DNA of 53,313 nt, taken from the NCBI GenBank assembly GCA_025061835.1, contig JANXAC010000011.1:1-53313 (forward strand). Reading direction: 5' to 3'. The position numbers and the translations under genes are program-made. This document shows, in pieces, positions 1,920 to 36,064 of the stretch. The first letter of the stretch is position 1; the number at the start of each line of letters is the position of its first letter. The notes beneath the pieces were generated by a model. It was not told the DNA's origin and searched no databases. It saw only the letters and a program-made list of their open reading frames with translations. Origin of the DNA: Spirochaetota bacterium (GTDB lineage Bacteria; Spirochaetota; Brevinematia; DTOW01).

Positions 1920-1942
1920 AGGATATTCTCAAATTAGTGAAT

Positions 1943-1972: not shown

Positions 1973-1983
1973 TTTATATACTA

Positions 1984-2056: not shown

Positions 2057-2061
2057 CATAG

Positions 2062-2295: not shown

Positions 2296-2379
2296 TAGAA
2301 TCTAATCCATATCTATTCAAGGAAGTTCTTGTGAATTAAAAAACTAATTGGTAGTAGGATAATTCTGTGTATGGCAAAC

Positions 2380-2409
2380 TTGTAATTAGCAATTACTTAA
2401 ACTTATAAA
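2380..2409 (+). promoter_or_regulatory. Promoter for rimM
   Basis: TTGTAA at 2380-2385, 18 bases, TATAAA at 2404-2409. The ATG at 2419 is nine bases further on, so the leader should be about two bases long. Confidence 0.5.
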
Positions 2410-2418
2410 ATTATAGCG

Positions 2419-2925: not shown

Positions 2926-2946
2926 TTTAATGCCGAATATTCATAT

Positions 2947-3378: not shown

Positions 3379-3391
3379 GTTTTGTAGATTG

Positions 3392-3793
3392 TTATTTTTG
3401 GGTTGGTGGTGTAGTAGGTGTTTTTGAAGGCATTGAACAGTTTCCGTTGAAGATGCATCCCGATTCTATGTATAGGTCTGGTGTTTTTATATCACCTGTC
3501 AGTCTAGCACCACTTATCATCTCAAGTTTGTCTGTTGCTTCAACATTACCTATGATTTCACCGTAGTTTGTTATGTTCGCAGCTTTTATCTGTGCTTTGA
3601 CTACCGCTTTAGGTCCTACAACTAGATGTCCTGTAGCATCAATCTCACCCTCAAAAGTTCCCTTTATCATAAGAGATGTTGAAAACTTTAGAATACCCTT
3701 GAAAGATATATCTTCTGCTAAAACTGTGTTAATATTCTTCTCGTCAATAACATGCTCCTTCGGCATACCTAAACCTCCAAACTTGAACTTCAT
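3392..3793 (-). CDS. Bactofilin cytoskeletal protein
   Basis: A 133-residue protein from the ATG at 3791-3793. It shows the bactofilin repeat core: SLMIKGTFEGEIDATGHLVVGP, KAVVKAQIKAANITNYGEIIGNVEA, then GARLTGDIKTPDLYIESG. These repeats form a short right-handed beta-helix that polymerises end to end on the membrane. The Pro/Thr-rich tail (SKTPTTPPTQK) is disordered, as usual. A GGAGG lies seven bases before an internal ATG at 3764-3766 (MPKEHVID), so a start there, giving 124 residues, is equally possible. Bactofilins are linked to cell shape and, in spirochaetes, to the helical cell body. Confidence 0.9.
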   Translation of the reverse strand: MKFKFGGLGMPKEHVIDEKNINTVLAEDISFKGILKFSTSLMIKGTFEGEIDATGHLVVGPKAVVKAQIKAANITNYGEIIGNVEATDKLEMISGARLTGDIKTPDLYIESGCIFNGNCSMPSKTPTTPPTQK

Positions 3794-3982
3794 TATCAAA
3801 GATTTACCCAGCTTATTTCAATTTACTAATTCAAGTCTGATGGAATTCAAGACTTTCTTCTAGAACTTTTAAAGTCATTAGTAATCTAATATAACTTCTA
3901 ACAAGATTTTATTCTAACCAACTTTGTAATTTACTAGTTTATTCCCTTCTGAAACTTAAGAAGAAAATTAATATGATACTCG

Positions 3983-3988
3983 TATAAA
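3983..3988 (+). promoter_or_regulatory. Probable -10 box for proA
   Basis: TATAAA at 3983-3988. The -35 region is not convincing. An ATGGAGG ribosome site lies between this box and the proA start. Confidence 0.35.
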
Positions 3989-4009
3989 ATTTGTGAATGG
4001 AGGCTATCA

Positions 4010-5257: not shown

Positions 5258-5258
5258 A

Positions 5259-6209
5259 TTAGTTCTCTGAAATTTGTTTGAAAGCCTTGTCTCTCATGTT
5301 TGCTATGAAACTATTCAATTCTTCAACAAGTGGTTTTAACTCGTATGAAATTAAGTCACTCGCTGAAACGAAATCACGTTTTTGCACACTACCAATTAGT
5401 GATTCTATTATGCTATTTATACTGCCAAATTTTGAAAAATCAAATGATTGTAGATAGTCAGAAAATAATTTGCTACCAGACGATGTGATTACATATCTCA
5501 AGAACTCAATGAGACTTATAAATATTTCTGAGAATTCGTATATTTCCTTTAGAGCTTCTTCGTCGTTTCCTGTCTGAAGTTTTAAAGGAATGTCGTCAAT
5601 TAACCTTAAGATGTTTGATAGATCATTATCTATAGTTGTATCAAAGAAAAGATTGCCTTCCTGGGATATCCTATCAAGAACTTTAGTTATGTCGTTCAAG
5701 AGTGTTTCAAGTTCGTCTAATTTATTCATAAACTCACTTTTCTTAGTATCATTTTGGAGTTCATTATAGGTGAAGTTAGATATAAAATTAACTATTTCAT
5801 TTCTTCGCAACACGTATTCGGACTTAGGAGAAAATATGAAGAGTATATTGATTGAAGTTATTAATACTTCTATTATCCAAGATCTTGCTTGATCAAAAGT
5901 TCCAAAATCAATATTTCCTTCTTTGATGTGTTTTCTAAGGTTTTGAGTGTAAGGTATAAGAGAGTGTAAGAGAGATGTTGATATTTCAAAATACGACGCT
6001 GTCTCAACTTCAAGATTTGAAACTGCTTTTATCTCAATTCTTTCAAGTAATGGGTCATCAACACTAAAAGGCTTGCCGTCAATCCTCAATTCTGTTATTG
6101 AGTGTCCATAGCTACTAACTATTTCTGCTATATTCTCAACAACATCCTTTATAGTTCTTTCGTTGTCAATGCTATAGTCAATCTTGTTCCCCATTATGTA
6201 TATGTCCAT
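5259..6209 (-). CDS. Uncharacterised helical protein
   Basis: A 316-residue protein if it starts at 6207-6209, which has GAGAGG seven to eight bases upstream. A second ATG at 6224 would add five residues but sits almost on the predicted transcription start. The first 75 residues look like a small beta-rich domain (MDIYIMGNKIDYSID, then LRIDGKPFSVDDPLLERIEI), reminiscent of a ubiquitin- or flagellar-assembly-like fold. The rest is helical and acidic, with long amphipathic stretches. There is no signal peptide or transmembrane helix. I do not recognise the family. It may be restricted to this lineage. Confidence 0.75.
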   Translation of the reverse strand: MDIYIMGNKIDYSIDNERTIKDVVENIAEIVSSYGHSITELRIDGKPFSVDDPLLERIEIKAVSNLEVETASYFEISTSLLHSLIPYTQNLRKHIKEGNIDFGTFDQARSWIIEVLITSINILFIFSPKSEYVLRRNEIVNFISNFTYNELQNDTKKSEFMNKLDELETLLNDITKVLDRISQEGNLFFDTTIDNDLSNILRLIDDIPLKLQTGNDEEALKEIYEFSEIFISLIEFLRYVITSSGSKLFSDYLQSFDFSKFGSINSIIESLIGSVQKRDFVSASDLISYELKPLVEELNSFIANMRDKAFKQISEN

Positions 6210-6229
6210 TACATATCCTCTCATAGTAT

Positions 6230-6260
6230 ATTATATCGTAATTATCTATTTATCTTTCAA
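6230..6260 (-). promoter_or_regulatory. Promoter for the 316-residue hypothetical gene
   Basis: On the minus strand, TTGAAA (6255-6260), a 19-base spacer and TATAAT (6230-6235). The transcript would begin near 6223 and include GAGAGG before the ATG at 6209. Confidence 0.5.
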
Positions 6261-6294
6261 ATTTTAGACCTTTTTGTTAATACAGAGTTTTTTA

Positions 6295-6324
6295 TTGAAT
6301 TTATAATGTATAGATTTTTATAAT
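6295..6324 (+). promoter_or_regulatory. Promoter for the tRNA-Val/tRNA-Pro pair
   Basis: TTGAAT at 6295-6300, 18 bases, TATAAT at 6319-6324. The start is predicted about 16 bases before tRNA-Val. Confidence 0.6.
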
Positions 6325-6346
6325 TTTTGAAACCAGTTCAGCAAGG

Positions 6347-6420
6347 GGGCGGTTAGCTCAGTTGGTTAGAGCGCCACTTTGACGCAGTGGAGGTCAGAGG
6401 TTCGAATCCTCTACCGCCCA
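6347..6420 (+). tRNA. tRNA-Val (anticodon GAC)
   Basis: The acceptor stem GGGCGGT pairs with ACCGCCC and the discriminator is A. Anticodon stem CCACT/AGTGG encloses loop TTGACGC, giving GAC. The T-arm reads AGAGGTTCGAATCCTCT. No CCA is encoded. Confidence 0.95.
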
Positions 6421-6424
6421 AGGT

Positions 6425-6498
6425 CGGGATGTAGCGCAGCCTGGTAGCGCACACCCTTGGGGTGGGTGGGGTCGCTGGTTCAAATCCAGTCATCCCGA
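6425..6498 (+). tRNA. tRNA-Pro (anticodon GGG)
   Basis: The acceptor stem CGGGATG pairs with CATCCCG, discriminator A. Anticodon stem CACCC/GGGTG encloses loop TTGGGGT, giving GGG. The T-arm reads CTGGTTCAAATCCAG. It lies four bases after tRNA-Val, so the two are processed from one transcript. No CCA is encoded. Confidence 0.95.
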
Positions 6499-6510
6499 CA
6501 TATATCAAAC

Positions 6511-7554
6511 TCATATCCTATCAGAAGCCCACTTAGCAGTCCTCGCAACAATTTCGTCTTTGTCTTCCACTAACTTATTTATGGTATCCCTTAAACTTTT
6601 AGCACCGTTGTTGACTGCAACTATTATCGCATTTCTAACCATCCCCCTTCTACCTGCTCTTAAGAACGCTTTACCCTTGAAAGCCTTCTTAAACTGATTA
6701 CCACTGGGTATTGACATAACGTATTTTAGGTTGAGGAAAGGAGTTATCTCGGTATTAAATTTCTTTATTCTCGTTACAAACTTCTTAAGGTAAAGGATCT
6801 TGTTAAATGGACACACTTCTTGACATACATCGCATCCGAAAATCCAATCACCAATCAAAACTGCTAAATCATCGGGTATCACTCTTCTGTATTCAATAGT
6901 AAGGTAAGATATGCACTTTCTGGCATCAAGGACATAACCAGAACTCATTAACGCTCCTGTTGGACAAGCAGTTATACACCTAGAGCAGCTACCACATCCC
7001 TTGAATTTAATTCTATCATCATACTCAATCTCAAGATCAGTTAAAACCTCTCCTATAAAAAAGAATGAACCAAGTTTGGAATTTATCACGCAGGTATTCT
7101 TGCCCTGAAAGCCAAACCCTCCAGCAACCGCAAAACCTCTTTCATACAAAGGAGTAGCATCAGAAAAAACTCTATACTTGAACTCTTTTTTTATCTCCCT
7201 CTTCAGTCTCTCCACAAACTCATTGAGCATTTCTCTAATTACAAAATGATAGTCATACCCCCAAGCATACATTGATACTCTACCAAACTCTTCAGAAGGT
7301 CTCTCAAAGTAAGAAGAATTGAAATAACTAGCACCAACAAGTATAACTGTTCTAACCCAGTTTTCAATCAGAGTCGCGTCAAACTTTTTCAATCTGTGTT
7401 CTTCAAGGTATTTCATATCACCATTGAGAGACTTTGATATCCAAGTTTGGTAGCTAGTAATTAAGTCAGGGTCTTTTGAAATTGAATAAGGTTCAACAAA
7501 AGAGACTATATCAAAACCAACATCAAGGGCAATACTTTTTATTAATTCCTTCAT
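6511..7554 (-). CDS. queG: Epoxyqueuosine reductase QueG
   Basis: A 347-residue protein. It is an iron-sulfur, cobalamin-dependent reductase that makes queuosine from epoxyqueuosine in tRNA. The central segment GFGFQGKNTCVIN is typical of the family. Two ferredoxin-like cluster motifs follow: CGSCSRCITACP with a later CISYLTIEYR, and CDVCQEVCPFNK. The C-terminal helical repeat (RRGMVRNAIIVAVNNG, then DEIVARTAKWA) resembles the HEAT-like tail of QueG. It is the last gene of the rpsP-khpA-queG cluster and is separated from khpA by a hairpin. Confidence 0.9.
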   Translation of the reverse strand: MKELIKSIALDVGFDIVSFVEPYSISKDPDLITSYQTWISKSLNGDMKYLEEHRLKKFDATLIENWVRTVILVGASYFNSSYFERPSEEFGRVSMYAWGYDYHFVIREMLNEFVERLKREIKKEFKYRVFSDATPLYERGFAVAGGFGFQGKNTCVINSKLGSFFFIGEVLTDLEIEYDDRIKFKGCGSCSRCITACPTGALMSSGYVLDARKCISYLTIEYRRVIPDDLAVLIGDWIFGCDVCQEVCPFNKILYLKKFVTRIKKFNTEITPFLNLKYVMSIPSGNQFKKAFKGKAFLRAGRRGMVRNAIIVAVNNGAKSLRDTINKLVEDKDEIVARTAKWASDRI

Positions 7555-20905: not shown

Positions 20906-21862
20906 ATGATAAGAAGGTTAAGAAAAAGCAAATCAATAAGAGATTTGGTAGCGGAAGCGGAACTGTCACCTAATGACTTCGTTATGCCTCTCTTCGTCAT
21001 AGAAGGAGAGAATATAGTTCAAGAAATAGAAACCTTTCCTGAAGTTCGCAGATATAGTGTTGATAGACTGATTGAAGAAGTTAAAGTTTTGAGGGATAAG
21101 GAGATAAAAAGCGTTCTACTTTTTGGTGTTATTGATGAGATTAAAAAGGATGATATTGCATCCTACTCATACAAAGAAGATAATGTTGTGTGTAAAGCAA
21201 TAAGAGAGATAAAAAACAAATTTGATGATGTTGTTGTTATTGCCGATGTGTGTGTTTGTGGATACACTACTCATGGTCATTGTGGTATTTGGAACGGAGA
21301 CTGGGTTGATAACAACAAAACACTTGAAGTTCTATCACTTTCTGCACTAAACTATGCGAGAGCAGGAGTAGATATAGTAGCTCCTTCGGCGATGATGGAC
21401 CATCAAGTCAAAGCGATAAGGAAGACTCTGGATGAGAACGGATTTGAAAGAACTCTCATAATGTCATACTCTGCTAAATACTCATCTAGCTTCTACGGAC
21501 CTTTCAGAGATATAGTGGGTTCATCTCCAAAATTCAGTGATAGAAAGACCTACCAGATGGACTACCGAAACATAAGACAAGCACTAGAGGAGGTAAGACA
21601 GGACATAGAGGAAGGGGCAGATATAGTTATGGTTAAGCCGGCACTTTCTTACCTTGATGTGATAAGAGAAATAAGGAATAATTTCAACGTTCCACTCGCC
21701 GCTTACAATGTAAGCGGTGAATACTCTATGGTTAAGGTAGCATCCAAAAACGGGATATTCAATGAAAAAGATATTGCGATGGAAATACTATACTCAATAA
21801 AGAGAGCAGGTGCAGATATAATAATATCATACTGGGCTAAAGATGTTCCAGACTGGCTATAA
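20906..21862 (+). CDS. hemB: Porphobilinogen synthase HemB
   Basis: A 318-residue enzyme that condenses two 5-aminolevulinate molecules to porphobilinogen. The zinc-type cysteine cluster DVCVCGYTTHGHCG is present. The two active-site lysines are in MSYSAKYSSSFYGPF and ADIVMVKPALSYLD. The start codon sits at the predicted transcription start and has no Shine-Dalgarno sequence. hemL follows after five bases. Together with the hemA-hemC and cobA-hemD fusions it supplies the tetrapyrrole route to sirohaem. Confidence 0.97.
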   Translation: MIRRLRKSKSIRDLVAEAELSPNDFVMPLFVIEGENIVQEIETFPEVRRYSVDRLIEEVKVLRDKEIKSVLLFGVIDEIKKDDIASYSYKEDNVVCKAIREIKNKFDDVVVIADVCVCGYTTHGHCGIWNGDWVDNNKTLEVLSLSALNYARAGVDIVAPSAMMDHQVKAIRKTLDENGFERTLIMSYSAKYSSSFYGPFRDIVGSSPKFSDRKTYQMDYRNIRQALEEVRQDIEEGADIVMVKPALSYLDVIREIRNNFNVPLAAYNVSGEYSMVKVASKNGIFNEKDIAMEILYSIKRAGADIIISYWAKDVPDWL

Positions 21863-21867
21863 AAACT

Positions 21868-23172
21868 ATGAAGAACAACTTCTTTAGATCAAACCTAGAA
21901 GCATTCGAGAACTCAAAAGAGTATATACCAGGCGGTGTCTCATCACCAGTAAGGTCATTCTACCAAGTTGGTGGTATTCCTATCTTCGTATCCAAAGCAA
22001 AGGGTTCAAAAATACATGACATAGAAGGTAAAACCTACATTGACTACATAATGTCTTGGGGTGCTCTGATACTAGGACATTCCTACAGAAAAGTTATAAA
22101 CACTGTAAAAAAATATATCCACAGGGGGACAAGTTATGGACTTCCAACCGAGGTTGAGTATGCTCTAGCAAAAACAATATCGGAACTCATACCATCGGTT
22201 GATATGGTAAGGTTCGTAAGTTCAGGAACCGAAGCTTGTATGAGTGCTGTAAGACTCGCAAGAGGTTTCACAGGTAAAAGTAAGATTATCAAGTTTGAAG
22301 GATGTTATCATGGACACGCTGACTACTTCCTTGTCTCCGCAGGATCTGGTGTTGCTAACATACCAACATCAACAAGCAAAGGTGTTCCAAGTTCATTAAT
22401 CCAAGACAGTATAATACTACCTTTCAACGATGAAGATGCATTCCTCAAAACTATTGATAAAGAAAAAGATATAGCGTGTGTGATAATTGAACCTATACCT
22501 GCGAATATGGGTGTTGTGATACCGAAAGATGGGTTCCTGAAACTTATAAGGGATGTATGTAGCAACAGAGGTATAATACTTATATTTGACGAGGTAATAA
22601 CTGGGTTTAGGTTCGGGGTATGTGGAGTTCAGGAGTTATTAGGTATAAAACCTGACCTTACCTGTCTAGGTAAGATAGTAGGTGGGGGATTCCCTCTCGC
22701 ATGTTTTGGAGGTAGAAGAGATATAATGTCTTTACTCGCACCACTTGGTGATGTATATCAAGCAGGTACTCTGTCAGGTAATCCAATAGCAGTAATAGCA
22801 GGACTTACAACACTATCTATTCTCAAAACGATGGATTATTCATACTTGGAAAAAATAGCTAATATGCTGGTTCAAGTAGTCAAGGATATATCTAGAAGCA
22901 TAAACGCAGGAAAGATAAAATTAGTAGTAAATCAGTTCAAAAGTCTATTCTCAATATTCTTCAGTGAGAAGGATCACATAACAAACTTTACCGACGTCAA
23001 ATCCTCAAGCAAAGAACTATACTCAAAACTATTCCACAACTTACTCAAAAGAGGTATTCTAATACCTCCTTCACTATTTGAAGGATGGTTCGTTTCATTC
23101 GCACATACACAAAAAGATATAGAACTAACCATATCTGCTTTACATTCAGCGATAAAAGAGACTTTTGAATAA
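21868..23172 (+). CDS. hemL: Glutamate-1-semialdehyde 2,1-aminomutase HemL
   Basis: A 434-residue PLP enzyme of standard length. It isomerises glutamate semialdehyde to 5-aminolevulinate, the product HemA hands over. Seen: YIPGGVSSPVRSF, VRFVSSGTEACMSAVRLARG, EGCYHGHADYFLVSAGSG, and PLP lysine in CLGKIVGGGFPLACFGG. It is the second gene of the hemB-hemL operon. Confidence 0.97.
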   Translation: MKNNFFRSNLEAFENSKEYIPGGVSSPVRSFYQVGGIPIFVSKAKGSKIHDIEGKTYIDYIMSWGALILGHSYRKVINTVKKYIHRGTSYGLPTEVEYALAKTISELIPSVDMVRFVSSGTEACMSAVRLARGFTGKSKIIKFEGCYHGHADYFLVSAGSGVANIPTSTSKGVPSSLIQDSIILPFNDEDAFLKTIDKEKDIACVIIEPIPANMGVVIPKDGFLKLIRDVCSNRGIILIFDEVITGFRFGVCGVQELLGIKPDLTCLGKIVGGGFPLACFGGRRDIMSLLAPLGDVYQAGTLSGNPIAVIAGLTTLSILKTMDYSYLEKIANMLVQVVKDISRSINAGKIKLVVNQFKSLFSIFFSEKDHITNFTDVKSSSKELYSKLFHNLLKRGILIPPSLFEGWFVSFAHTQKDIELTISALHSAIKETFE

Positions 23173-24506: not shown

Positions 24507-26363
24507 TCAATGCTTCAAAAGATATTTGACCTTGCTAATGATACTATCAGTTTCATCGTTAATGTATTCTACCGTATCTACCTTTATTATCTTATCAGGG
24601 TTTGAAAGGAAATTCCTCTTGAACGCTATAAACTTCTGCCAATAATACTTATTAACATAATACACCAATTTATCTTCTAGATCACTATAAGGAGTATCAA
24701 AAACAATCTTTCTCCTACTGTCAATCTTTAGAAGGAAAGAAAACTTTCTAATATCGCTGTTTCTTATCTGTATCGCAAGAGAACCTTGTAGTGGATGAGT
24801 ATCAAACACTTTTGTATCAAGTATTTCTGAAATCCTGTTCGTAAGTCCAAGTCTTTTCAGTGCTATTGTTGCCATAATTACACCATCATATTCACCACTG
24901 TCAAGTTTAGCAAGCCTCTCCTCTATATTTCCTCTTATATCTTTTGTTATGAGGTCTGGTCTTAAGGATCTTATCTGTTCTATCCTTCTCCTACTTGATA
25001 CACCTATTACAGATCCCTTCGGGAGTGTTGAAAGGGTATAACCTTTTAGGTCTTCCCTTACAACCAAGCAATCAGTTCTATCCTCTGATGAAGTCAGTGC
25101 TATCGTTATTATACCGTCTTTGTGTATATCTGGTAGGTCTTTAGCGCTATGGACTGCTATATCAATCTCATGGTCAATAAGAGCTTGCTCAATTAGGTCA
25201 GTAAAAAAATCACTTCCTTCTATCTTGTAAATAGGAGTATTTTTATCAATATCACCAGTAGTATTGTAATACTTAATATCAAATCTTATTCTCAAGGAAG
25301 GAACCTTCTCTAGAAGTTTATTTATAAACTCCTCAACCTGCTTTTTCGCCAGGTTGCTACCACGACTACCTATAACAACATTCCTCTTCATAAGATCACA
25401 CTTAATGCCCTCCATAAACTTGCTCACCTCAACGCTAATTATCTTTCTTGAACTTTCAAACATTTCCTCTCTATGAGACAAATTATGATTCCTCTCGTCA
25501 TTCAAGTTATCAATATTATATACAACAATATTGGGTTTTAAATTTTCAATCATAACATTTCTAGGAACCGAAAGGTCAAATATCAGAATCTTTGATATTC
25601 TATTTGTAAAGAAAGTATCATCAACAATCTTAAAAGGACAACTAGTAGCAGTTATCAAAACATCTGAACTATCAATCAAATACCTAACATCCTCAAAATT
25701 ACAATACTTAATAGAAAACTTTTTTGATATTTCAACTGCTCTCTCCAGATGCCTAGTTGAAGCAATAGTTATATCTTTCGTCAATGCCCTCAAATACTTC
25801 AACAAGTGTAAGGCTATTTCACCTGTGCCTATTAGCAATACTCTAGGAGCTTCAAAATTTTCTGAGATTCTACTTCGGACTATGCTACCTAGAGATACTT
25901 TACTTGATATAGGAATACTGCTTCTGATTTTACCAGATACGAATAATGCTCTCTGAAAGAGTTTGTTCAAGAAATATCCTGTTCTCCCAATCCCCAAGGA
26001 ATAGTAATAACTTTTCTTGACTTGATCGTGAATCTGACATTCACCAATAAACTTGGAATCTATTCCACTCACAACCCTAAAAAGATGATCAATAGCATCT
26101 TCAGAGGTTATGAAATAAAAATACTTCCTATCACTAGGTAGAATGTTGAATGTCTTGAATAGATAATCTTTAACAGATTCCAAACTTAACTTCTCGTTCA
26201 AATATCCATACACCTCAAACCTATTACAAGTTGGTATTATAACTACCTCATCCATAATAGTTAGCCTTCGGTAGTATTCCTCAAGAAGAGAGGAAGTAGC
26301 GAAGTATCTCTCTCTTATATCAATTCTTGCCGTCTTATGACTAATACCAAAAACTAGATACAT
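24507..26363 (-). CDS. hemA/hemC: Fusion of glutamyl-tRNA reductase (HemA) and a short porphobilinogen deaminase (HemC)
   Basis: A 618-residue two-enzyme protein. Residues 1-318 are HemA: catalytic C46 in IPTCNRFEVYG, GECQIHDQVKKSY, and NADPH loop LLIGTGEIALHLL. The usual C-terminal dimerisation domain stops after about 20 residues. From 327, HemC begins: VVIGSRGSNLAKKQVEE, NTTGDIDK, HSAKDLPD (catalytic D409), SSRRRIEQ and DIRGNIEERL. It then has HPLQGSLAIQIR where most enzymes have PAPGQGALAIE. The third domain, with the cysteine that carries the dipyrromethane cofactor, is absent; the last 80 residues have no cysteine at all. From memory, the short HemC of Chlamydiae looks similar. It follows tusA by six bases. 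Confidence 0.9.
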   Translation of the reverse strand: MYLVFGISHKTARIDIRERYFATSSLLEEYYRRLTIMDEVVIIPTCNRFEVYGYLNEKLSLESVKDYLFKTFNILPSDRKYFYFITSEDAIDHLFRVVSGIDSKFIGECQIHDQVKKSYYYSLGIGRTGYFLNKLFQRALFVSGKIRSSIPISSKVSLGSIVRSRISENFEAPRVLLIGTGEIALHLLKYLRALTKDITIASTRHLERAVEISKKFSIKYCNFEDVRYLIDSSDVLITATSCPFKIVDDTFFTNRISKILIFDLSVPRNVMIENLKPNIVVYNIDNLNDERNHNLSHREEMFESSRKIISVEVSKFMEGIKCDLMKRNVVIGSRGSNLAKKQVEEFINKLLEKVPSLRIRFDIKYYNTTGDIDKNTPIYKIEGSDFFTDLIEQALIDHEIDIAVHSAKDLPDIHKDGIITIALTSSEDRTDCLVVREDLKGYTLSTLPKGSVIGVSSRRRIEQIRSLRPDLITKDIRGNIEERLAKLDSGEYDGVIMATIALKRLGLTNRISEILDTKVFDTHPLQGSLAIQIRNSDIRKFSFLLKIDSRRKIVFDTPYSDLEDKLVYYVNKYYWQKFIAFKRNFLSNPDKIIKVDTVEYINDETDSIISKVKYLLKH

Positions 26364-26741: not shown

Positions 26742-28958
26742 ATGGTTCAAGAGTATCTTGACATATTTGACATACACAAGGGAGTGGATATAGAAGCGGA
26801 GATAATGGAGATAGAGGATGTAATCCAGAGGTTTTTATCAGGCAGGTTAAGTCCTGAAAAGTTTTTATCATTCAGGCTAACACACGGAATATACGGTGTT
26901 AGGCACTACCCCGAAGGTATGCACATGGTTAGAATAAAGTTACCACAGGGTATAATAAACTCTGATCAGTTACGAGCAACTGCGCTTATGGTTGAAAACT
27001 ACGCTGGAAGCGGTGTTGCACACATAACAACGAGGCAAGATTTACAACTACACTATGTTAAACTTGAGAATATACCTTCTTTATTTAGGGACATGGCTAG
27101 GGTAGGACTTACATCAAAAGAAGCTTGCGGCAATACGGTTAGAAACATTACAGCATCACCTTTTACGGGAATATCTAAAGATGAAGTTTTTGATGTATTA
27201 CCTTACGCTATGTATATGACTAGGTATTTCTTAAGACATCCTCTGACACTTACGCTACCTAGGAAGTTTAAGATAGCATGGTCTGAGTCGGAAAAGGACT
27301 GGGGAATGGTAAAGATACACGATATGGGGTTCGTTGCTCAGAAGAGAGTTATTGATGGTAAGGAAGTAAAGGGATTTAAGTTTTATGTTGGTGGTGGTTT
27401 AGGTGCTATACCTATGCCTGCTCATTTACTTACGGACTTCATAGATACAGAGAATGTCTATTACCTTGCGGAGGCGGTTATAAGGGTCTTCCACAGAGAG
27501 GGTGAAAGAAAGTTGAGGAGTAAAGCAAGGATAAAGTTTCTTGTAGCGAGGTTAGGAGTAGAAGAGTTTAAAAAGCGTGTATTTGAAGAGTATGAGAGAG
27601 TGAAGAGACATATCAATATAAAGGAAGATTTAGAAAGGTATATTCAGAACTTCCCACATCCAGCACCATTTGTTAACGGCAGAGAAGGCGGTAAGAAGGT
27701 TCAAAATGTTAGTCCGTCCGAAGTAGAAAAGTATCAAAACCTCAAGAATACTCCAGAATATTCAAACTGGTTATCAAATGACGTTTATGAACAAAGACAG
27801 GAAGGATACAGTGCAGTTATGATAAGAGTTCCACTTGGTAACCTTAAGCCTGATGATCTGAGGTTCATTGCCAGATTATCTGAAGACTACGGTGCTGGTT
27901 ATGCAGTAGCAACTCAAAGACAAGACATACTCTTGCCTTGGGTCAAGAACGAACTACTCGTTGGTGTATTCGGAAGTCTTAAGGAGCATGGGTTTATAAC
28001 ACAATCCACCTTGCCGCTGATAACATCCTGCCCTGGAGCATACTCCTGTAAACTAGCAGTTACATATCCATATAACCTTGCTGAAGCGATAGCAAATGAA
28101 GTAAATGACCTTATGGGGGTTAGGATAAATATCTCCGGTTGTCCAAACTCTTGCGGACAACATCATATAGGTGATATCGGATTTTCAGGAAATGCATTAG
28201 AGAACCAGGATGGAGTTATACCTCACTATCTTATGTATGTTGGTGGATACCCCTATGAAGAAACTGGTATAATAGGGAATGCTCTTGTGAAGATACCTTC
28301 AAAGAATGTTCCAAAGGTTGTAGATAGAATGCTAACGATATACAAAAATGAGAGACAAGATTCTGAAAGTTTTAGAGATTTTATAAAAAGAATAGGTATT
28401 GACAGAGTAAGGAAGGAGATAGCAGAATACACTAAAGTGGCATCCAAAAGTGAAAATCCTGAATTGTATAGAGACTGGGGACAGAATAGAGATTTCGCTA
28501 TAGAAGCGGCAAAGAGAGGTGAATGTGCAGGAAGTCTTCTTGATATAATCTCAATATCAATATTTGAAGCATTGCGAGAGGTATACGAAGCAGAAGGAGA
28601 CCTACAGGATGAAGATTATCAGACGGTTATTCAAAAGTCGTTCAACGCTGTAGTAGGTTGTTGTAAAGCACTACTCTACCTCAAAGGACTTGAACTGCAA
28701 GAACCACTAGAAATACTCCAAAAGTATAAGGAACTTATCATACCAGACAGGATACTACCAAAAGTATATGATACGATCGCAGATGAAGCAGTTGAATGGA
28801 TGAAGAATATTTCCAAGTTTGATAAGGAGACAACCGAAAAGGTATTTGACAAAGTATCACTATTCCTTAAAGATGTAGATAAGGCATTCTTGAGGCTTAC
28901 TCCTGAACTGAAGATAGAAGCGCTCAAGAACTCTGATGATGACGATAAGATGGGTTAG
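26742..28958 (+). CDS. Sirohaem sulfite reductase with helical C-terminal extension
   Basis: A 738-residue assimilatory sulfite (or nitrite) reductase. Cluster and sirohaem ligands are complete: C430 and C436 in SCPGAYSCKL, C467 and C471 in GCPNSCGQHHIGDIGF. The anion-binding basic residues of the family are R98 (ITTRQDLQLH), R134 (TVRNIT), K175 and K177 (LPRKFKIAW). Residues beyond about 575 are an extra helical domain starting YRDWGQNRDF, with GECAGSLLDI and VVGCCKALLYL. I recall a HEPN-like tail on sulfite reductases of Bacteroidota that looks like this. Sulfite is more likely than nitrite because of the cys genes next door. The 3' end overlaps that of cobA-hemD by 35 bases, tail to tail. 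Confidence 0.92.
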   Translation: MVQEYLDIFDIHKGVDIEAEIMEIEDVIQRFLSGRLSPEKFLSFRLTHGIYGVRHYPEGMHMVRIKLPQGIINSDQLRATALMVENYAGSGVAHITTRQDLQLHYVKLENIPSLFRDMARVGLTSKEACGNTVRNITASPFTGISKDEVFDVLPYAMYMTRYFLRHPLTLTLPRKFKIAWSESEKDWGMVKIHDMGFVAQKRVIDGKEVKGFKFYVGGGLGAIPMPAHLLTDFIDTENVYYLAEAVIRVFHREGERKLRSKARIKFLVARLGVEEFKKRVFEEYERVKRHINIKEDLERYIQNFPHPAPFVNGREGGKKVQNVSPSEVEKYQNLKNTPEYSNWLSNDVYEQRQEGYSAVMIRVPLGNLKPDDLRFIARLSEDYGAGYAVATQRQDILLPWVKNELLVGVFGSLKEHGFITQSTLPLITSCPGAYSCKLAVTYPYNLAEAIANEVNDLMGVRINISGCPNSCGQHHIGDIGFSGNALENQDGVIPHYLMYVGGYPYEETGIIGNALVKIPSKNVPKVVDRMLTIYKNERQDSESFRDFIKRIGIDRVRKEIAEYTKVASKSENPELYRDWGQNRDFAIEAAKRGECAGSLLDIISISIFEALREVYEAEGDLQDEDYQTVIQKSFNAVVGCCKALLYLKGLELQEPLEILQKYKELIIPDRILPKVYDTIADEAVEWMKNISKFDKETTEKVFDKVSLFLKDVDKAFLRLTPELKIEALKNSDDDDKMG

Positions 28959-30342
28959 CATTAAGGTATTTTTCTAACTCTCTACTAGTTTTTGGACCTA
29001 TACATCTTATTTCTTTATCAAGAGGTATGTAACCATACCTCCTTACAAAGTTTCTCACTGTTGAAGGCGAAGTGAATATTATCGTATCAATGAGCGAAAA
29101 GTCAATATCTGGTAGGTTATCTGGCATAATGTTTCTGTAAGCGTAGCACTCCTCTACATAAAATCCGAGCTTACTAAATCCATCACCTAATCCTTTGTCC
29201 GAAAGGTCAGACCTTGGGAGAAATATCTTACCTCTCGGCACATTTTTGAATACTTCAAGTAATCCTTCTGAAGATTCTTCAGTCGGGACTAGTTCTGCTA
29301 TCACACCATAGTTTTTGAGTGCATTTGAAGTTGAAGCCCCAATCGCTGCTATCTTCACTCCACTCAACACTCTTGTATCCATCTTAAGGTTGTAAAGTGT
29401 CTTGAAAAAATAATAGACCCCATATCTACTACAAAAGACAACCCAATCAAACTCTTTATTTGCTACTCTCTTTATGTAACTCTCAAGTTCTGAGTAATCC
29501 TCAAGAGGCACTATCCTAACCATAGGAAGATGAAATATTATACCATCCTCAAAGAACCTTTCTTCAGATATACCAGTGAATAGTATTTTTTTCTGAGATT
29601 TATACCAATTGAGTTGCTCCTCATATCTTATAACATCACCTATTATAAAGATTGTAGGAGGAGTTATCTTATGCTCTATAACATCCTTCTGTATATTACC
29701 CAGATTAGATACAATATATCTCTGATCAAGTCTTGAGATATTCCTGATTGCCAAAACTGGTGTATCTGGAGAAAGTTTTGATACATTCATCAGATTTTCT
29801 GCTATCTCACCGATCCTCTCAACGCTCATATACAAAACAAGTGTTTCTCTACTACTTATTTTCTCCCAGTCAATGAATGATATTCTTTTATCTTGAGACT
29901 CATGTCCTGTTATAAATGCTACTTTTGGAGCAAACTCTCTACTTGTTAGAGAGATTCCTAACATACACGCAGCCGCAGTTCCAGCAGTGACACCAGGAAC
30001 AACCCTGTACTCAATACCATTATCCTTGAGTATTTTCTCCTCCTCATGAAGTCTCCCGAAGATAGAAGGATCACCTCCCTTGAGTCTTACTACCTTCTTA
30101 CCTTCCCTTACCCTAGAAATTATGAAATCACACAATCCTCTTATCCTATCTAGCGAGTGATCCTTTGAAAACGTTTCAGCACAGATTTTCTCACAATTAT
30201 CCTTACAATACTCCAAGACATCCTCGCCACACAAATAGTCATAAACAACGACATCACACTGTGAGAGAATCTTAGCACCCTTCACGGTTATCAGGTTTTT
30301 ATCCCCGGGACCACTACCAACTATATACACTATTCCTTTCAT
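28924..30342 (-). CDS. cobA/hemD: Fusion of uroporphyrinogen-III C-methyltransferase (CobA) and uroporphyrinogen-III synthase (HemD)
   Basis: A 472-residue two-enzyme protein. Residues 1-240 are CobA: VYIVGSGPGDKNLITVKG, VVRLKGGDPSIFGRLHEE and VVPGVTAGTAAACMLGISLT. Residues 250-472 are HemD: WVVFCSRYGVYYFF, AIGASTSNALKNYG, and IIFTSPSTVRNF. HemD closes hydroxymethylbilane to uroporphyrinogen III, and CobA methylates it to precorrin-2. Together they turn the HemC product into a sirohaem precursor. The start has GGAGGAG and overlaps the upstream sulfite-reductase paralogue by 29 bases. The enzyme for oxidation and iron insertion is not in the window. Confidence 0.95.
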   Translation of the reverse strand: MKGIVYIVGSGPGDKNLITVKGAKILSQCDVVVYDYLCGEDVLEYCKDNCEKICAETFSKDHSLDRIRGLCDFIISRVREGKKVVRLKGGDPSIFGRLHEEEKILKDNGIEYRVVPGVTAGTAAACMLGISLTSREFAPKVAFITGHESQDKRISFIDWEKISSRETLVLYMSVERIGEIAENLMNVSKLSPDTPVLAIRNISRLDQRYIVSNLGNIQKDVIEHKITPPTIFIIGDVIRYEEQLNWYKSQKKILFTGISEERFFEDGIIFHLPMVRIVPLEDYSELESYIKRVANKEFDWVVFCSRYGVYYFFKTLYNLKMDTRVLSGVKIAAIGASTSNALKNYGVIAELVPTEESSEGLLEVFKNVPRGKIFLPRSDLSDKGLGDGFSKLGFYVEECYAYRNIMPDNLPDIDFSLIDTIIFTSPSTVRNFVRRYGYIPLDKEIRCIGPKTSRELEKYLNANPSYRHHQSS

Positions 30343-32179
30343 TCATCTCCTCCTCCGAAATGATAATATCTCTCAAACTATCTATACTATCATCCAAAAC
30401 ATTCTCAACCTCAAAAGTAAATTCCAACATACCGTCCAATTTAGAAGGGATACAAAAACTATTAAACTTACTCCTAACTATTTTAGGTAGGCTATCCATA
30501 AAGCTAGATATAATCCTACGGAAATGAGAGATAAAACGATCCTCTTCACGATTCTCAACCTTCTTTAGAACTCTGTATAAAATTAGTTGCACATCAAACA
30601 TCTTCAGATAAATCTCATCTAGCTTACTACCTCTCCTAACAGGTGGGTTCAAAGCAACGATACCATCAGTCAAAGTATGTTTAGATGTTGATATAATTGT
30701 TTCAAAGACTCTCTTCTTAAGTTCAACTTTCTTTTGTGATACAAAATCTTGAAAACTAATACCCGATGCCTTATATGCATCAATTATGGTTTTGATTATA
30801 TGAGGAGTTTGGTTTGGAAGAGATTTTGAAAATGCTCTACCTATTGGTAGTTTATTCTTACCGTATCCGCCGAAAGTTATTACATTCCAAACCTTTATCC
30901 TACCCCTAAACTCGGATATGGTGAATACACCTATATCTCCTATGTGATGATGACCCGAAGAGTTAGGACAACCAGAAATATTTATTCTCAAAGCAGTATC
31001 CTTTACTTCCTCTCTTACCATTTCAGACAGAAGTTTTGAGTTCAGTATAGCGATATTACACGAATAAGTTCCAGTGCAGGATACTATGTTCTGATCTTCC
31101 AAGTTCAAAACTCCAACATTCAAAAGTTCAAGTAAGCTTCTGATCTCATTCTCTTTATTCTTATGCAGATTGGGAACTATCAAATTTTGTCTATTACCTA
31201 CAATTAACCTACCATCACCATAGTTTTTGGATAAGAAGCAAAAAATCTTCAAAAGATCACTTTCTACATCGCCGTTATCAACCACACTCTCAACGAAAAA
31301 CATATCTTCCTGCTTCTGTTGAACAAACTTCACAAAAGATTTCTTATCAACTTTCTTCATTCTAATAGTATCTCCATTACTACTATCACCTAAAAGGTTA
31401 AAGTAAGTAGTTGTATCTTCAAGAAGAGCAATATCTTTAAAATACTTTTCGGACTCATTCACAACATAGTCTCTCCCTTTCGCTACAATCAACCTTTTAG
31501 CCCTTACCTTACCAAAATCAACTAAACACAAAACAAGACTTACGACTCTCTTTACAGCGTTAAGGATATCTTCAAATTCAAAGAGTAAGTCACCCTTTCT
31601 AGGAACTTCTCCTAAACTTCCTCCAAAAAATATTTCAAAACCTTGAGTTTTATTATGAACCTTTGCAATTAGCCCAACATCGCTTATTAGAGCAAGACCT
31701 AAATCTTCATCAGAATCTGATATACCTATTCTAAACTTTGGATGTAGGTTAGAGGGGGAAACGTAGTTTGAAAGAGTTTTTTCAAGAAGAATAGCAATAT
31801 CAAGAACATCAAACACTCCCAACTTATTTATACCAGTGAGATAACTTACGTTTATGAAATCTGATATTCCAGTCTCAAAAGGAAAGAGACCAATTGTGTT
31901 GAGGTCTTTAAGAATCCCTAAAAGTTGATCTGGTGGTATATTCTGGAGTTCAATATTCTGTTTAGTAGTTAAATGTATGAAACTTACTTTTGTTAGATCC
32001 ACCATCTTATATATCTTCTCTGAACTAAATACACCAAACTTGGATGGTATTCTTACTGTAAAGGTTTTGTTCTTTTCGTTTGGAAGTATCTTATACCTTC
32101 TCAAAGTTTTGGAGAGTTCTTCAAAGGATATCTCACCACTTATGAAATTATTTATTTTGGATAATATACTCTGTATCAT
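30314..32179 (-). CDS. Sulfite reductase paralogue with altered active site, likely non-catalytic partner
   Basis: A 621-residue protein with the same two-repeat fold as the reductase at 26742. C368, C374 (SCTGTYSCNI) and C404 (ISGCPNSSGHHHIGDIG) remain, but the fourth ligand is S408 in place of Cys, confirmed in the codons TGT CCT AAC TCT TCG. Aligning by eye, the anion-binding residues are also changed: K73 (TTKQNIELQ) for Arg, I109 (DFINVS) for Arg, and R150 (HPKFRIG) for Lys. A helical tail of about 100 residues follows. The start at 32179 gives a four-base overlap (ATGA) with the permease gene. Co-operon with cobA-hemD suggests a structural or carrier role. Confidence 0.85.
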   Translation of the reverse strand: MIQSILSKINNFISGEISFEELSKTLRRYKILPNEKNKTFTVRIPSKFGVFSSEKIYKMVDLTKVSFIHLTTKQNIELQNIPPDQLLGILKDLNTIGLFPFETGISDFINVSYLTGINKLGVFDVLDIAILLEKTLSNYVSPSNLHPKFRIGISDSDEDLGLALISDVGLIAKVHNKTQGFEIFFGGSLGEVPRKGDLLFEFEDILNAVKRVVSLVLCLVDFGKVRAKRLIVAKGRDYVVNESEKYFKDIALLEDTTTYFNLLGDSSNGDTIRMKKVDKKSFVKFVQQKQEDMFFVESVVDNGDVESDLLKIFCFLSKNYGDGRLIVGNRQNLIVPNLHKNKENEIRSLLELLNVGVLNLEDQNIVSCTGTYSCNIAILNSKLLSEMVREEVKDTALRINISGCPNSSGHHHIGDIGVFTISEFRGRIKVWNVITFGGYGKNKLPIGRAFSKSLPNQTPHIIKTIIDAYKASGISFQDFVSQKKVELKKRVFETIISTSKHTLTDGIVALNPPVRRGSKLDEIYLKMFDVQLILYRVLKKVENREEDRFISHFRRIISSFMDSLPKIVRSKFNSFCIPSKLDGMLEFTFEVENVLDDSIDSLRDIIISEEEMNERNSVYSW

Positions 32180-33174
32180 ATCAACCCCAACGATGAGAAT
32201 AAATGGCACATAAGGTATGTTGTGATTGTTGGGAGTATAGTTGAGAATGTCCAGACTATGAGTATCTTTTTAGTTAGTGGGCTTTTGAGAGAGTATAGGT
32301 GTGAGATCTCTTTCTTCACAGTGCTTACTGCTATTATGGATGAAGCAACAACTATCACAGTAGGAAACGGTAATCCTATGAGTGAAGATAGGACAGTAAA
32401 TGTTGAACTAACTATTGACACAATAGATGCAGATACTACACCCATAGGAACTATCTCATCTCCAACAGTTTTTATAACTCTTTTACCCATAAGCAAAGCA
32501 CCTAGTCCGAAAAGGAGAGAGAATAGTATAAACCCTTCAAACTCTCCCATAATATCAGTAGCAGCCACAGGTCCTACCACATTTGATACATTATTCGTTC
32601 CTATTGAGAATGCGTTGTATATTGATGTTACTAGAACTAGTATAAATAAAAACTCTTTCTTATTAAGCAATTTCTCATAAACCCATAGGTTTGAATACCT
32701 TGGAGGATAGAACAGTTTTGTTAGGAAGAAAGTTGAGAAGTATGTTAGCACGAACGAAGATATAAACACGACCAATGATAAGATAAAGGTATTCCAATAC
32801 ACATTCCACAGGTATAACCCTGCACCAAGAAAAGATGTCATGATTATTATACTTGTAGATGATGGAACCTTGAGAAGGTTTGATACGAATAGGTTAACCC
32901 CAGCCGAAAAGAGTATTATAACAACGAGCCACTTTTTCGTTGAAAGCACTTCTTTTGGTATAATCTTTGAGGATAGTGTTTTAGCAACCTCTCCTCCTAC
33001 AAATACTGCACCAATGAGCAAAAATACCGTGAATAATAACATACACATTAGTAGTCCAACTCTCTTGGTTGAGTATAGAGTGGCAAATGAAACTGAAAAC
33101 CCGCTAGCCCCCATAGATATTGCCCAAAGCGATGAGACAAGAAATAGAGATAGTTCCCACAAAAAGTTATCCAT
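32176..33174 (-). CDS. PiT-family permease, probably sulfate importer (CysP-like)
   Basis: A 332-residue membrane protein with about nine to ten helices. The second family signature is clear: AFSIGTNNVSNVVGPVAAT. The N-terminal copy is degenerate: ISMGASGFSVSFATLYS in place of GxNDxAN. PiT proteins usually move phosphate, but a Bacillus member (CysP) carries sulfate, and the gene here lies inside cysH-cysD-cysN. It overlaps cysN by eight bases and the reductase paralogue by four. Sulfate as substrate is inferred from context. Confidence 0.8.
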   Translation of the reverse strand: MDNFLWELSLFLVSSLWAISMGASGFSVSFATLYSTKRVGLLMCMLLFTVFLLIGAVFVGGEVAKTLSSKIIPKEVLSTKKWLVVIILFSAGVNLFVSNLLKVPSSTSIIIMTSFLGAGLYLWNVYWNTFILSLVVFISSFVLTYFSTFFLTKLFYPPRYSNLWVYEKLLNKKEFLFILVLVTSIYNAFSIGTNNVSNVVGPVAATDIMGEFEGFILFSLLFGLGALLMGKRVIKTVGDEIVPMGVVSASIVSIVSSTFTVLSSLIGLPFPTVIVVASSIIAVSTVKKEISHLYSLKSPLTKKILIVWTFSTILPTITTYLMCHLFSSLGLI

Positions 33175-34417
33175 TTATGATTATACCTCCTGCAACAGTG
33201 CTGTTATTAACTTCATTTACGAGTATGAAACAACCAGTCCATCGGTAGTCGGAGTAGTAATCATAGCATATAGGTTGTGCTGTTTTTATTAATAGTTTTG
33301 CTATTTCATTAACCCCTATCTCTTTTTGCTCTACCTCTTCAAGAGTGTTGATGTCAATCTTATTTACTATCTCTTTCACAACACACTTTGTAGTATTACT
33401 GCCGTTCATAAGTAAAAACTTTTCTCCCTCTGTAAGTTTCTTCCTATCGTCCATCCAGAATATGTAAGACACAAATTCGTTGCTAACAATTGGCTCTTCA
33501 CCCTCTCTCACGATATAAGCACCTCTGGATATGTCTATATCATCTTCTAGGTGGATTATACAGTTATATGGAGAGCTTATTTCTGAAACATCTTTTAAGT
33601 TTGACTCAATTTTTGTAATTCTAGTTGTGAAACCTTCGGGTAAGATAACAACCCTATCTCCTACTCTATATGTTCCAGATAGAACTCTTCCCGCATATCC
33701 TCTGTAATCGTAAAGACCATCCGAACTACTCGGTTTCATAACATACTGGACCTGAAACCTAGTCTTATCAAAATCTTCATATTCAATCTCAATATTCTCA
33801 AGGAATTCCATAACCGTAGGTCCTTCATACCAAGGCATATTCTCTGATTTCACAACAACATTATCACCCAAGTAGGCACTAACAGGTATAACTGTTATGT
33901 AATGTTTATCAACCTTTTTAAAAAAGTTGATGATGTCCGAAGATACTCTATCAAAGACTTCTTTACTGTATCCTACTATATCCATCTTATTAACACAGAC
34001 GAGCAGATGTGGTATCTCAAGTAGTGATGAAATAATTATGTGTCTTTTTGTCTGCTCTGTAAGTCCATTTCTAGCATCAACTATTATGATACCCAAATCA
34101 CAAGATGAAGCACCTGTTATCATATTCCTAGTGTATTGGAAGTGACCTGGAGTATCAACGAGTATAAACTTTCTCTTAGGAGTAGAGAAATATTTGTATG
34201 CAACATCTATGGTTATGCCTTGTTCTCTCTCCGCCTTTAATCCATCGGTTATCAGCGCCAAATCTATCTCGGCATTTGGTGGTCTATTACCTCTCCTTGA
34301 AAGTGCCTCAATTAAATCAGAGGATATAGCGCCGCTATCATACAGAAGCCTACCTATGAGAGTGCTTTTACCATCATCAACATTACCACAAGTGAAGAAT
34401 TTCAAAACTTCAACCAT
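33167..34417 (-). CDS. cysN: Sulfate adenylyltransferase GTPase subunit CysN
   Basis: A 416-residue EF-Tu-like GTPase that drives sulfate adenylylation with CysD. G1 is FFTCGNVDDGKSTLIG, switch regions contain EREQGITIDVAY, G3 DTPGHFQYTRNM and G4 NKMD. No fused APS kinase (CysC) domain is present, consistent with the APS-type reductase next door. The last residues overlap the permease start. Confidence 0.95.
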   Translation of the reverse strand: MVEVLKFFTCGNVDDGKSTLIGRLLYDSGAISSDLIEALSRRGNRPPNAEIDLALITDGLKAEREQGITIDVAYKYFSTPKRKFILVDTPGHFQYTRNMITGASSCDLGIIIVDARNGLTEQTKRHIIISSLLEIPHLLVCVNKMDIVGYSKEVFDRVSSDIINFFKKVDKHYITVIPVSAYLGDNVVVKSENMPWYEGPTVMEFLENIEIEYEDFDKTRFQVQYVMKPSSSDGLYDYRGYAGRVLSGTYRVGDRVVILPEGFTTRITKIESNLKDVSEISSPYNCIIHLEDDIDISRGAYIVREGEEPIVSNEFVSYIFWMDDRKKLTEGEKFLLMNGSNTTKCVVKEIVNKIDINTLEEVEQKEIGVNEIAKLLIKTAQPICYDYYSDYRWTGCFILVNEVNNSTVAGGIIING

Positions 34418-34428
34418 CGCAACACCCC

Positions 34429-35334
34429 CTAAAAGTATCCAATCTTCTTTCTATCTTCCATAGCGGTTTCTGAAATGGTATCATCAAGTCTAGTTGCTCC
34501 TCGCTCGCTTATGTTCGTGGATATGAGTTCTTGTATTATCTTCTCAACAGTATCCGCATCACTCTCAATAGCAGCAGTGCAAGTCATATCTCCAACAGTT
34601 CTAAACCTTACTTTCTTATTCACTATCTTGTCCTCAGGATCAATCCTAATAAAAGGTGATACAGCAACTAACCTGCCCTTGTAGTATATACAATCCCTGT
34701 AATGTGCGAAGTATATTGATGGTAGTTTAATGTTCTCCCTCAAGATGTAGTTCCATATATCAAGTTCAGTCCAATTACTCAAAGGAAAAACTCTAACGTT
34801 TTCTCCCTTCTTTATTCTACCATTTAGTATGTGCCAGAGTTCTGGTCTCTGTCTTTTAGGATCCCACTGTCCAAACTCATCTCTTACTGAAAATATCCTC
34901 TCTTTAGCTCTTGCCTTCTCTTCTTCTCTCCTAGCACCCCCTATACAAGCGTCAAACTCAAACTCCTGTATCGTGTCTAATAGTGTGTATGTCTGTAAAA
35001 CATTCCTACTGGGAAGTTTTCCTGTAGCATCATCAATACCTTTTTGCTTTATCGTATCCTCAACATACCTAACGATCAATGTTTCACCTATCTCCTTCAC
35101 AAGATTGTCTCTGAATTCAATAGCTTCTGGAAAGTTATGTCCTGTGTCTATATGAACGAGTGGATAAGGAAACTTTCCAGGTCTGAAAGCTTTAAGTGAA
35201 AGATGAACTAGAACGATTGAGTCTTTACCACCAGAAAATAAAAGCGCAGGTCTTTGAAATTGACCTGCAACCTCTCTCAAGATATATATAGCCTCAGCTT
35301 CTAGATAGTCAAGATAGTCAATATTCCTCTTCAT
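34429..35334 (-). CDS. cysD: Sulfate adenylyltransferase small subunit CysD
   Basis: A 301-residue PP-loop enzyme. It forms adenosine 5'-phosphosulfate from ATP and sulfate. The PP-loop is LLFSGGKDSIVL; other marks are HIDTGHNFPEAIEFRD, GGARREEEKARAKERIFS and the C-terminal MTCTAAIESDADTV. The start at 35334 has GAGAGG five bases upstream. Sixteen bases separate it from cysH. Confidence 0.95.
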   Translation of the reverse strand: MKRNIDYLDYLEAEAIYILREVAGQFQRPALLFSGGKDSIVLVHLSLKAFRPGKFPYPLVHIDTGHNFPEAIEFRDNLVKEIGETLIVRYVEDTIKQKGIDDATGKLPSRNVLQTYTLLDTIQEFEFDACIGGARREEEKARAKERIFSVRDEFGQWDPKRQRPELWHILNGRIKKGENVRVFPLSNWTELDIWNYILRENIKLPSIYFAHYRDCIYYKGRLVAVSPFIRIDPEDKIVNKKVRFRTVGDMTCTAAIESDADTVEKIIQELISTNISERGATRLDDTISETAMEDRKKIGYF

Positions 35335-35350
35335 ACTCACCTCTCAAAAA

Positions 35351-36064
35351 TTAGAATTTCTTTACGTGTATCCCACATTCCTTGTGCTCTGGTGCTTCCC
35401 ACCACCATCTACCTGCTCTTATGTCTTCTGTCTTCTTAATAGGTCTAGTGCAAGGAGCACAACCTATACTAGCATAGCCCTTGTCATAAAGCGCGTTGTA
35501 AGGAATTTTGTTCTCCTTGATGTAATCCCATACCATTTTCTCCGACCAATCAGCTAAAGGATTTATCTTATATATGTTGTTATGAATAACATCAATCTCT
35601 AATTTCTTTATATCCTTCCTCGTTACAGACTGTTCTCTACGAAGCCCAGTAATCCAAGCTTCCAGTCCCTCCAACGCTCTCTTGAGAGGTCTAACTTTTC
35701 TAATCTCACAACACAACTCTCTCTTCTCAACACTCTCATAGAACAAGTTCATACCATAATTATTGACCATCTCCTCAACTTCCCTATAGTCAGGAAAATA
35801 AACTTTTACCTTAATACCATACTTCTCTCTTACTCTATCAATCACTTCATAAGTCTCACTTGGCAACCTTCCTGTGTCAATCGTAAAAACATTAGGTTCT
35901 ATACCTACTTTATTACAAACCTTAACCAAAACATCTATTATCACAACATCCTCTGCACTAAAACTTGAGGATAGCCCAACCTTATTCCCAAACTGCTTAA
36001 CTGCCCAGTCAATTATTTTTTCAGCATCGTAAATTTCCACATCTTCAGGAACTAATATTCCCAT
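35351..36064 (-). CDS. cysH: Adenylylsulfate reductase, 4Fe-4S type
   Basis: A 237-residue reductase that makes sulfite from APS. The iron-sulfur ligands that define the APS-using form are all present: CC in ELCCEIRKVRPLKRAL, then CAPC in IGCAPCTRPIKK. The catalytic cysteine is in HKECGIH near the C-terminus. PAPS-using enzymes lack the CC/CxxC pairs, so this enzyme should use APS directly, which fits the absence of cysC in the window. It leads the operon cysH-cysD-cysN-permease-reductase paralogue-cobA/hemD, all on the minus strand. Confidence 0.95.
   Translation of the reverse strand: MGILVPEDVEIYDAEKIIDWAVKQFGNKVGLSSSFSAEDVVIIDVLVKVCNKVGIEPNVFTIDTGRLPSETYEVIDRVREKYGIKVKVYFPDYREVEEMVNNYGMNLFYESVEKRELCCEIRKVRPLKRALEGLEAWITGLRREQSVTRKDIKKLEIDVIHNNIYKINPLADWSEKMVWDYIKENKIPYNALYDKGYASIGCAPCTRPIKKTEDIRAGRWWWEAPEHKECGIHVKKF

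Follow-up and report, generated by a model that had tools for sequence, protein, structure and literature searches.

Porphobilinogen deaminase (PBGD, HemC) joins four porphobilinogens to a dipyrromethane carried on a cysteine of its third domain and then cuts off the tetrapyrrole. In textbooks it is this dipyrromethane, attached to an invariant cysteine, that explains both the start of the chain and its termination at four rings. How, then, would a HemC that has no third domain begin a chain at all? The question is raised by a gene in a window of 53,313 nucleotides (the whole stretch of DNA analysed here, contig JANXAC010000011.1) from a Spirochaetota bacterium of the Brevinematia, in which an earlier note, made from the letters alone, had described a HemC without the cofactor-cysteine domain. 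The features of the window that bear on the question are these:

20906 to 21862, forward strand: HemB (5-aminolevulinate dehydratase, which makes porphobilinogen; PF00490, 1.2e-139)
21868 to 23172, forward strand: HemL-like glutamate-1-semialdehyde aminomutase (class III aminotransferase; PF00202, 1.7e-65)
24507 to 26363, reverse strand: HemA-HemC fusion, one open reading frame of 618 aa, with HemC as residues 327-618
25389 to 26363, reverse strand: HemA (glutamyl-tRNA reductase) module of the fusion, residues 1-325 (PF05201 at residues 6-149, PF01488 at 165-288)
24744 to 25385, reverse strand: HemC domains 1 and 2, residues 327-540 (PF01379, 5.6e-61)
24774 to 24797, reverse strand: signature HPLQGSLA, residues 523-530, in place of PAPGQGALA (alignment and pattern scan)
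24510 to 24743, reverse strand: C-terminal end, comprising the DSRR end of short HemC and a tail of about 75 residues (congener alignment and AlphaFold)
26742 to 28958, forward strand: siroheme sulfite/nitrite reductase family protein (PF01077/PF03460 and NirA-family matches)
28924 to 30342, reverse strand: CobA-HemD fusion (uroporphyrinogen-III methyltransferase and synthase; PF00590, PF02602, and TIGR01469 over cut-off)
33167 to 36064, reverse strand: CysN, CysD and CysH of sulfate assimilation (TIGR02034, TIGR02039 and TIGR00434 over their cut-offs)

The reading frame, its coordinates and its strand are as the earlier note gave them. In profile searches the HemA module scored above the TIGR01035 cut-off and had no match to the GlutR_dimer domain; its catalytic cysteine is Cys46. 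In genome G039, the stand-alone HemA adjoining a short HemC-CobA-HemD is likewise only 301 aa, and in L061 (4075-4980, reverse strand) the hemA and hemC frames share 11 bases, an overlap that is likely a forerunner of the fusion in the window.

The profile search that had been suggested for the HemC part matched PF01379 to residues 329-537 (206 bits against a cut-off of 22.1), which is to say domains 1 and 2, and the last 80 or so residues had no match in Pfam. TIGR00212 scored 207 bits against a cut-off of 164, covering model positions 2-218 of 293 only. AlphaFold modelled the HemC part with a mean pLDDT of 93.9 (about 89-98 per ten-residue block over domains 1 and 2), and Foldseek matched it to 32 solved PBGD chains over some 221-225 columns, again domains 1 and 2 only. 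The active-site set consists of R334, Q342, D371, F387, K408, D409, R459, R460, R477, R483, R504 and Q526. Mapping onto E. coli HemC numbering bore out the conservation that had been claimed for Asp409, Arg458-460 and Arg477: Asp409 is D84, Arg459 and Arg460 are R131 and R132, and Arg477 is R149, while Arg483, Arg334 and Arg504 correspond to R155, R11 and R176. Alignment likewise placed HPLQGSLAI at the site of PAPGQGALAIE.

The loss of the cofactor-cysteine domain was upheld at the level of the whole genome. PF03900, which models domain 3, was found neither in the protein nor in a six-frame translation of the genome; PF01379 matched at a single locus; and no cysteine follows residue 432 of the protein. 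These searches of the genome turned up neither another HemC nor a domain 3 encoded apart from it. That an assembly error, frameshift or misannotation conceals a normal domain 3 is a reading we give practically no weight: the genome is a draft of 55 contigs, 96% complete, but the other frames downstream of hemC hold many stops and no domain 3, and two independent congener assemblies (L003 and L004) carry the same HemA-HemC fusion with the same C-terminal ending. Moreover, the ending is common to a whole clade that includes cultured isolates, Dysgonomonas capnocytophagoides DSM 22835 and Bacteroides propionicifaciens DSM 19291 among them.

We scanned genome contigs, one genome per species across bacteria and archaea, with a degenerate DNA pattern of the motif, which was used after a protein-query scan of genome contigs with the window protein had given no match. 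The scan returned 104 stretches: 77 code for a HemC that lacks domain 3, and 27 have no HemC-like frame with the motif. The commonest arrangement is a fusion to CobA-HemD, the next enzymes in the pathway: HemC runs on into CobA at 63 of the 77 loci, ends no more than 45 residues past the motif at 10, is joined to HemD at 2, and has another tail at 2. The carriers belong to at least eight bacterial phyla and include Omnitrophota, Bacteroidales (among them the cultured Dysgonomonas and Bacteroides), Spirochaetota, Margulisbacteria, Elusimicrobia/Endomicrobia, Goldbacteria, Fibrobacterota and Babeliaceae. About 20 of 52 sampled HemC-bearing Omnitrophota genomes have the short form, which when it stands alone there is 220-245 aa long and ends right after domain 2; in a sample of 97 Bacteroidota, a short form was recognised in the query genome only, the others looking full-length by frame length. 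Several Spirochaetota genomes have a HemC cut at the same site as that of the window and continuing directly into CobA-HemD. In two Omnitrophota (L129 and L193), the short HemC reads on in frame into sequence resembling an HD-domain hydrolase (..IHHAWQVLKYAKE..ILHDIG..).

The junction is constant, with PLQGxLA, 17 residues and DxR preceding the first CobA strand, so that the clade can be described by the pattern [HNS]PLQGxLA, 17 residues, DxR, then an end or a fusion. The window protein, in which HPLQGSLA is followed by 17 residues and DSRR, fits this pattern, and by alignment the HPLQGSLA-type signature is diagnostic of the short clade. Searches of 36 genomes carrying a short HemC, drawn from many phyla, gave no match to PF03900, and PF01379 occurred once in 34 of these and twice in 2. 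We built trees from domains 1 and 2 only, so that the missing domain could not drive the grouping, and a branch with 100/100 support divided 38 short from 43 full-length HemCs. Two long-branch rows (L018 and L021) were left out of this tree; a quicker tree that included them put both at or beside the base of the short clade, with support of 86-87. Judged from these trees, the short HemCs form one clade. One of the two long-branch rows, L021 (genome G028; also L062, 1320-3188, forward strand), is a HemC-HemD fusion with a domain-3-like stretch in which the cofactor cysteine is replaced by Leu (LGIGLDAAF), K59 by Gly and G60 by Asp. In one tree its long branch falls as sister to the short clade, and it is possibly an intermediate between full and short HemC.

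Could something else occupy the place of domain 3? The earlier note had called the last 80 residues of the window protein unrelated to HemC and free of cysteine. The second statement stands; the first does not hold for the initial 20 or so residues past domain 2 (..LLKIDSRR), which are the usual end of the short HemC family. Beyond them lies the tail of about 75 residues, which among short HemCs is confined to the genus of the window, where two congeners are 47-56% identical to it and 28 positions are invariant. AlphaFold gave it a pLDDT of 92-96 over most of its length within the HemC model (63-73 in the last 23 or so residues) and of 86.6 when modelled alone. The structure prediction that had been proposed for this segment thus yielded a putative small alpha/beta unit that neither sequence nor fold search identifies as domain 3. 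The tail has no match among Pfam or PDB sequences, and on its own no significant Foldseek match. Its predicted elements follow one another as strand-helix-strand-strand-helix, much as at the start of CobA. We rejected a degenerate domain 3 (no match to a domain-3 HMM, and negative Foldseek searches with the tail and with the whole HemC) and a CobA remnant (no match to a CobA HMM, and a negative Foldseek search).

These results bear on the idea that a separate or non-homologous protein takes over the role of domain 3 in trans, or that the tail does so in the window genus and the fused CobA in others. The conservation of the tail and its confident predicted fold speak for such a replacement, as does the presence of CobA at the same place in most sister enzymes. 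Nevertheless, we think it quite unlikely, given that the 36 genomes are devoid of PF03900, that the tail has neither a cysteine nor a domain-3 match, and that the Omnitrophota enzymes stop after domain 2 and hence need no replacement in cis. Because stand-alone sisters end without a tail, the clade does not need one, and we treat it as a genus-specific addition.

What the clade has kept and lost emerged from a comparison of 99 short HemCs with 111 sorted as full-length, in E. coli numbering. Thirteen active-site positions are invariant in all 99 short enzymes: R11, Q19, D46, F62, H80, S81, K83, D84, R132, R149, R155, R176 and Q198. By contrast, K59 of the active-site loop is present in 0 of 99 short enzymes against 85 of 111 full ones, and R101 of a hinge in 4 of 99 against 104 of 111. 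R131 was retained in 31 of 98 short enzymes, the window enzyme (Arg459) among them. All genuinely full-length rows have it, and the two rows sorted as full that do not are short forms misplaced by the domain-3 filter. In human PBGD the equivalent of R131, R149, forms a salt bridge to the acetate of cofactor ring C1 (PMC7907807), and the E. coli R131L substitution impairs dipyrromethane binding (PMC3945110). The pattern suggests that the clade kept the residues that handle substrate and chemistry and relaxed those that hold the anchored cofactor. It also has gains: an Asp at position 60 (Asp385 in the window) is specific to the clade and common to short HemCs, and a Cys at position 172 occurs in 65 of 99 short enzymes against 4 of 111 full ones (Fisher p about 1e-23, ignoring shared ancestry).

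The last of these raises the prospect that a covalent dipyrromethane is retained on another residue, for example Cys172, which lines the cleft, or an Asp, Ser or Lys. Besides the enrichment of Cys172, E. coli modelling in which A172 touches the growing chain from the four-ring stage onward (PMC3945110, Table 1) lends this some plausibility. However, Cys172 is missing in 34 of 99 short enzymes, including those of the window genus, other Brevinematia and many Omnitrophota, and in every other column Cys is found in at most 13% of the clade, so that there is no single universal anchor. A replacement cysteine common to the whole clade is therefore ruled out, and position 172, which is Ile500 in the window, is not a general new anchor. 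We regard retention on another residue as unlikely.

The neighbourhood of the gene indicates what its product is used for. HemB is encoded nearby, and the aminotransferase next to it is, we infer from context, HemL. CobA-HemD is the consumer of hydroxymethylbilane, and the siroheme reductase family protein at 26742 to 28958 is likely the end user of the pathway. CysN, CysD and CysH place the pathway in sulfite reduction; CysK, a sulfate permease-like protein and a second siroheme reductase-like protein are also encoded in the window. Since a profile search found no HemE in the genome, siroheme for sulfite reduction is the most likely end of the pathway. The second reductase-like protein (30314-32209, reverse strand) has SGCPNSSG where the protein at 26742-28958 has SGCPNSCG, its last cluster/siroheme-ligand cysteine being replaced by Ser, and from this substitution may be a non-catalytic partner. 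Although CobA-HemD and sulfite reductase are present, the window genome (G000) and a congener (G003) gave no match to PF13241 (precorrin-2 dehydrogenase/siroheme synthase N-terminal); sister genomes have a SirC-like gene of about 160 aa. We found no HemC in another congener (G001, 95% complete) or in a further family member (G004, 82% complete), and the siroheme pathway thus looks optional in this lineage.

Across the clade, HemE scored above cut-off in 2 of 44 genomes with a short HemC and in 17 of 36 with a full one (Fisher 8.6e-6, ignoring shared ancestry), so short HemC mostly, but not only, accompanies pathways that lack HemE. HemE was also over the cut-off in a second genome with a short HemC-HemD (G227, locus L181). 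The first is an elusimicrobial genome with a complete heme operon (locus L155), in which CcsA is also encoded:

1552 to 6746, reverse strand: short HemC-HemD, protoporphyrinogen-oxidase-like protein, HemH (ferrochelatase) and HemE

The place of a short HemC within this operon, together with the conserved residues, leads us to conclude that short HemCs very probably make hydroxymethylbilane, and their fusions to HemD and CobA, the consumers of that product, also point to activity. One might suppose instead that short HemC has ceased to act as a hydroxymethylbilane synthase, or is a remnant in decay, since the textbook mechanism requires the domain-3 cysteine and the relatives G001 and G004 do without any HemC. 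We find this very unlikely in view of the invariance of the 13 active-site positions, the elusimicrobial operon, and frames that stay open across many phyla; in the window genome, the gene is the sole hemC, lies near the HemB and HemD genes, and is fused to hemA. The earlier view that the enzyme must work is thereby supported, though not proven, by the catalytic residues and by the heme operon of a sister. The earlier note had also proposed that either the cofactor is held in another manner or priming differs, and the present results support that proposal.

We infer that the window HemC is active and that its primer is not covalently held, and we consider it probable that it is a working hydroxymethylbilane synthase of a domain-3-less clade, primed without a cysteine-anchored dipyrromethane. 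Domains 1 and 2 would do the chemistry, with Asp409 (E. coli D84) driving porphobilinogen deamination and coupling and the cleft arginines binding the acetate and propionate groups. In place of a dipyrromethane anchored by a thioether, the chain would probably start on a pyrrole held by arginines only. The primer could be porphobilinogen itself, whose aminomethyl end would later be swapped for a hydroxyl, or a retained di- or oligopyrrole; Asp60, beside the lost Lys59, is a candidate holder of the free end. Hydroxymethylbilane would then be handed to HemD and, in the window organism, most likely on to siroheme for sulfite reductase. Three observations count against a non-covalent primer: the window enzyme, having retained R131, may yet accommodate a pyrrole at the C1 site; Cys172 allows a covalent route for part of the clade, though not for the window; and apo-PBGD makes its covalent cofactor from preuroporphyrinogen (PMC3949521), a reaction that would make another nucleophile compatible with the sequence. 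A broader proposal, which we advance tentatively, is that the clade is a natural and widespread kind of hydroxymethylbilane synthase with no cofactor bound to the protein; it would start on free porphobilinogen, with Asp60 (Asp385) possibly holding the aminomethyl end, and would count four units unanchored.

The short enzymes share with standard HemC (PF01379 plus PF03900, TIGR00212; E. coli 1PDA, B. megaterium 4MLQ, human 3ECR) domains 1 and 2, the catalytic Asp, the substrate-binding arginines and the place in the pathway, and differ from it in lacking domain 3 and the cofactor cysteine, in having PLQGxLA for PGQGALA, and in the loss of K59 and R101 and, mostly, of R131. Their nearest described counterpart is NCBIfam NF002202 (PRK01066, short hydroxymethylbilane synthase, 241 positions), which we take to be a model of chlamydial short HemC. 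HemC parts match it nearly end to end (17-228 for the window, 18-234 for L123 and 16-236 for L103), yet score below its cut-off (148-221 against 251 bits), and the window HemC differs further in its fusion to HemA and its extra tail. The proteins of that model probably belong to the same clade, and the near-full-length matches favour the remark in the earlier note that Chlamydiae have a similarly short HemC. Leptospira-type HemC-HemD fusions, of the same phylum, also join HemC to later pathway enzymes, but members that we take to be Leptospira-like (for example L082 and L084) still have, from domain 3, at least the GGC cofactor turn. The siroheme multi-enzyme fusions CobA-HemD and CysG similarly join successive uroporphyrinogen/siroheme enzymes; what sets the present proteins apart is that a HemC cut after domain 2 stands at the N-terminus (HemC-CobA-HemD) or, in the window, is fused to HemA.

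In the open-access literature we found no paper on a HemC without domain 3 or its mechanism, nor on the clade, how widely it is spread, its joint loss of cofactor ligands or what this means for priming. The sequence variant is not itself unknown, because databases call these proteins HemC and a short NCBIfam model exists; the clade is apparently both large and unstudied. Loss of the anchor domain in at least eight phyla, once within a heme operon, suggests that the anchor is dispensable, in which case the textbook start of the chain would not be universal. Priming and the control of chain length would become approachable by experiment in small enzymes of 220-245 residues. The clade also carries a warning for annotation, in that proteins unable to bear the modification in the known manner are being given the HemC name together with its cofactor rules.
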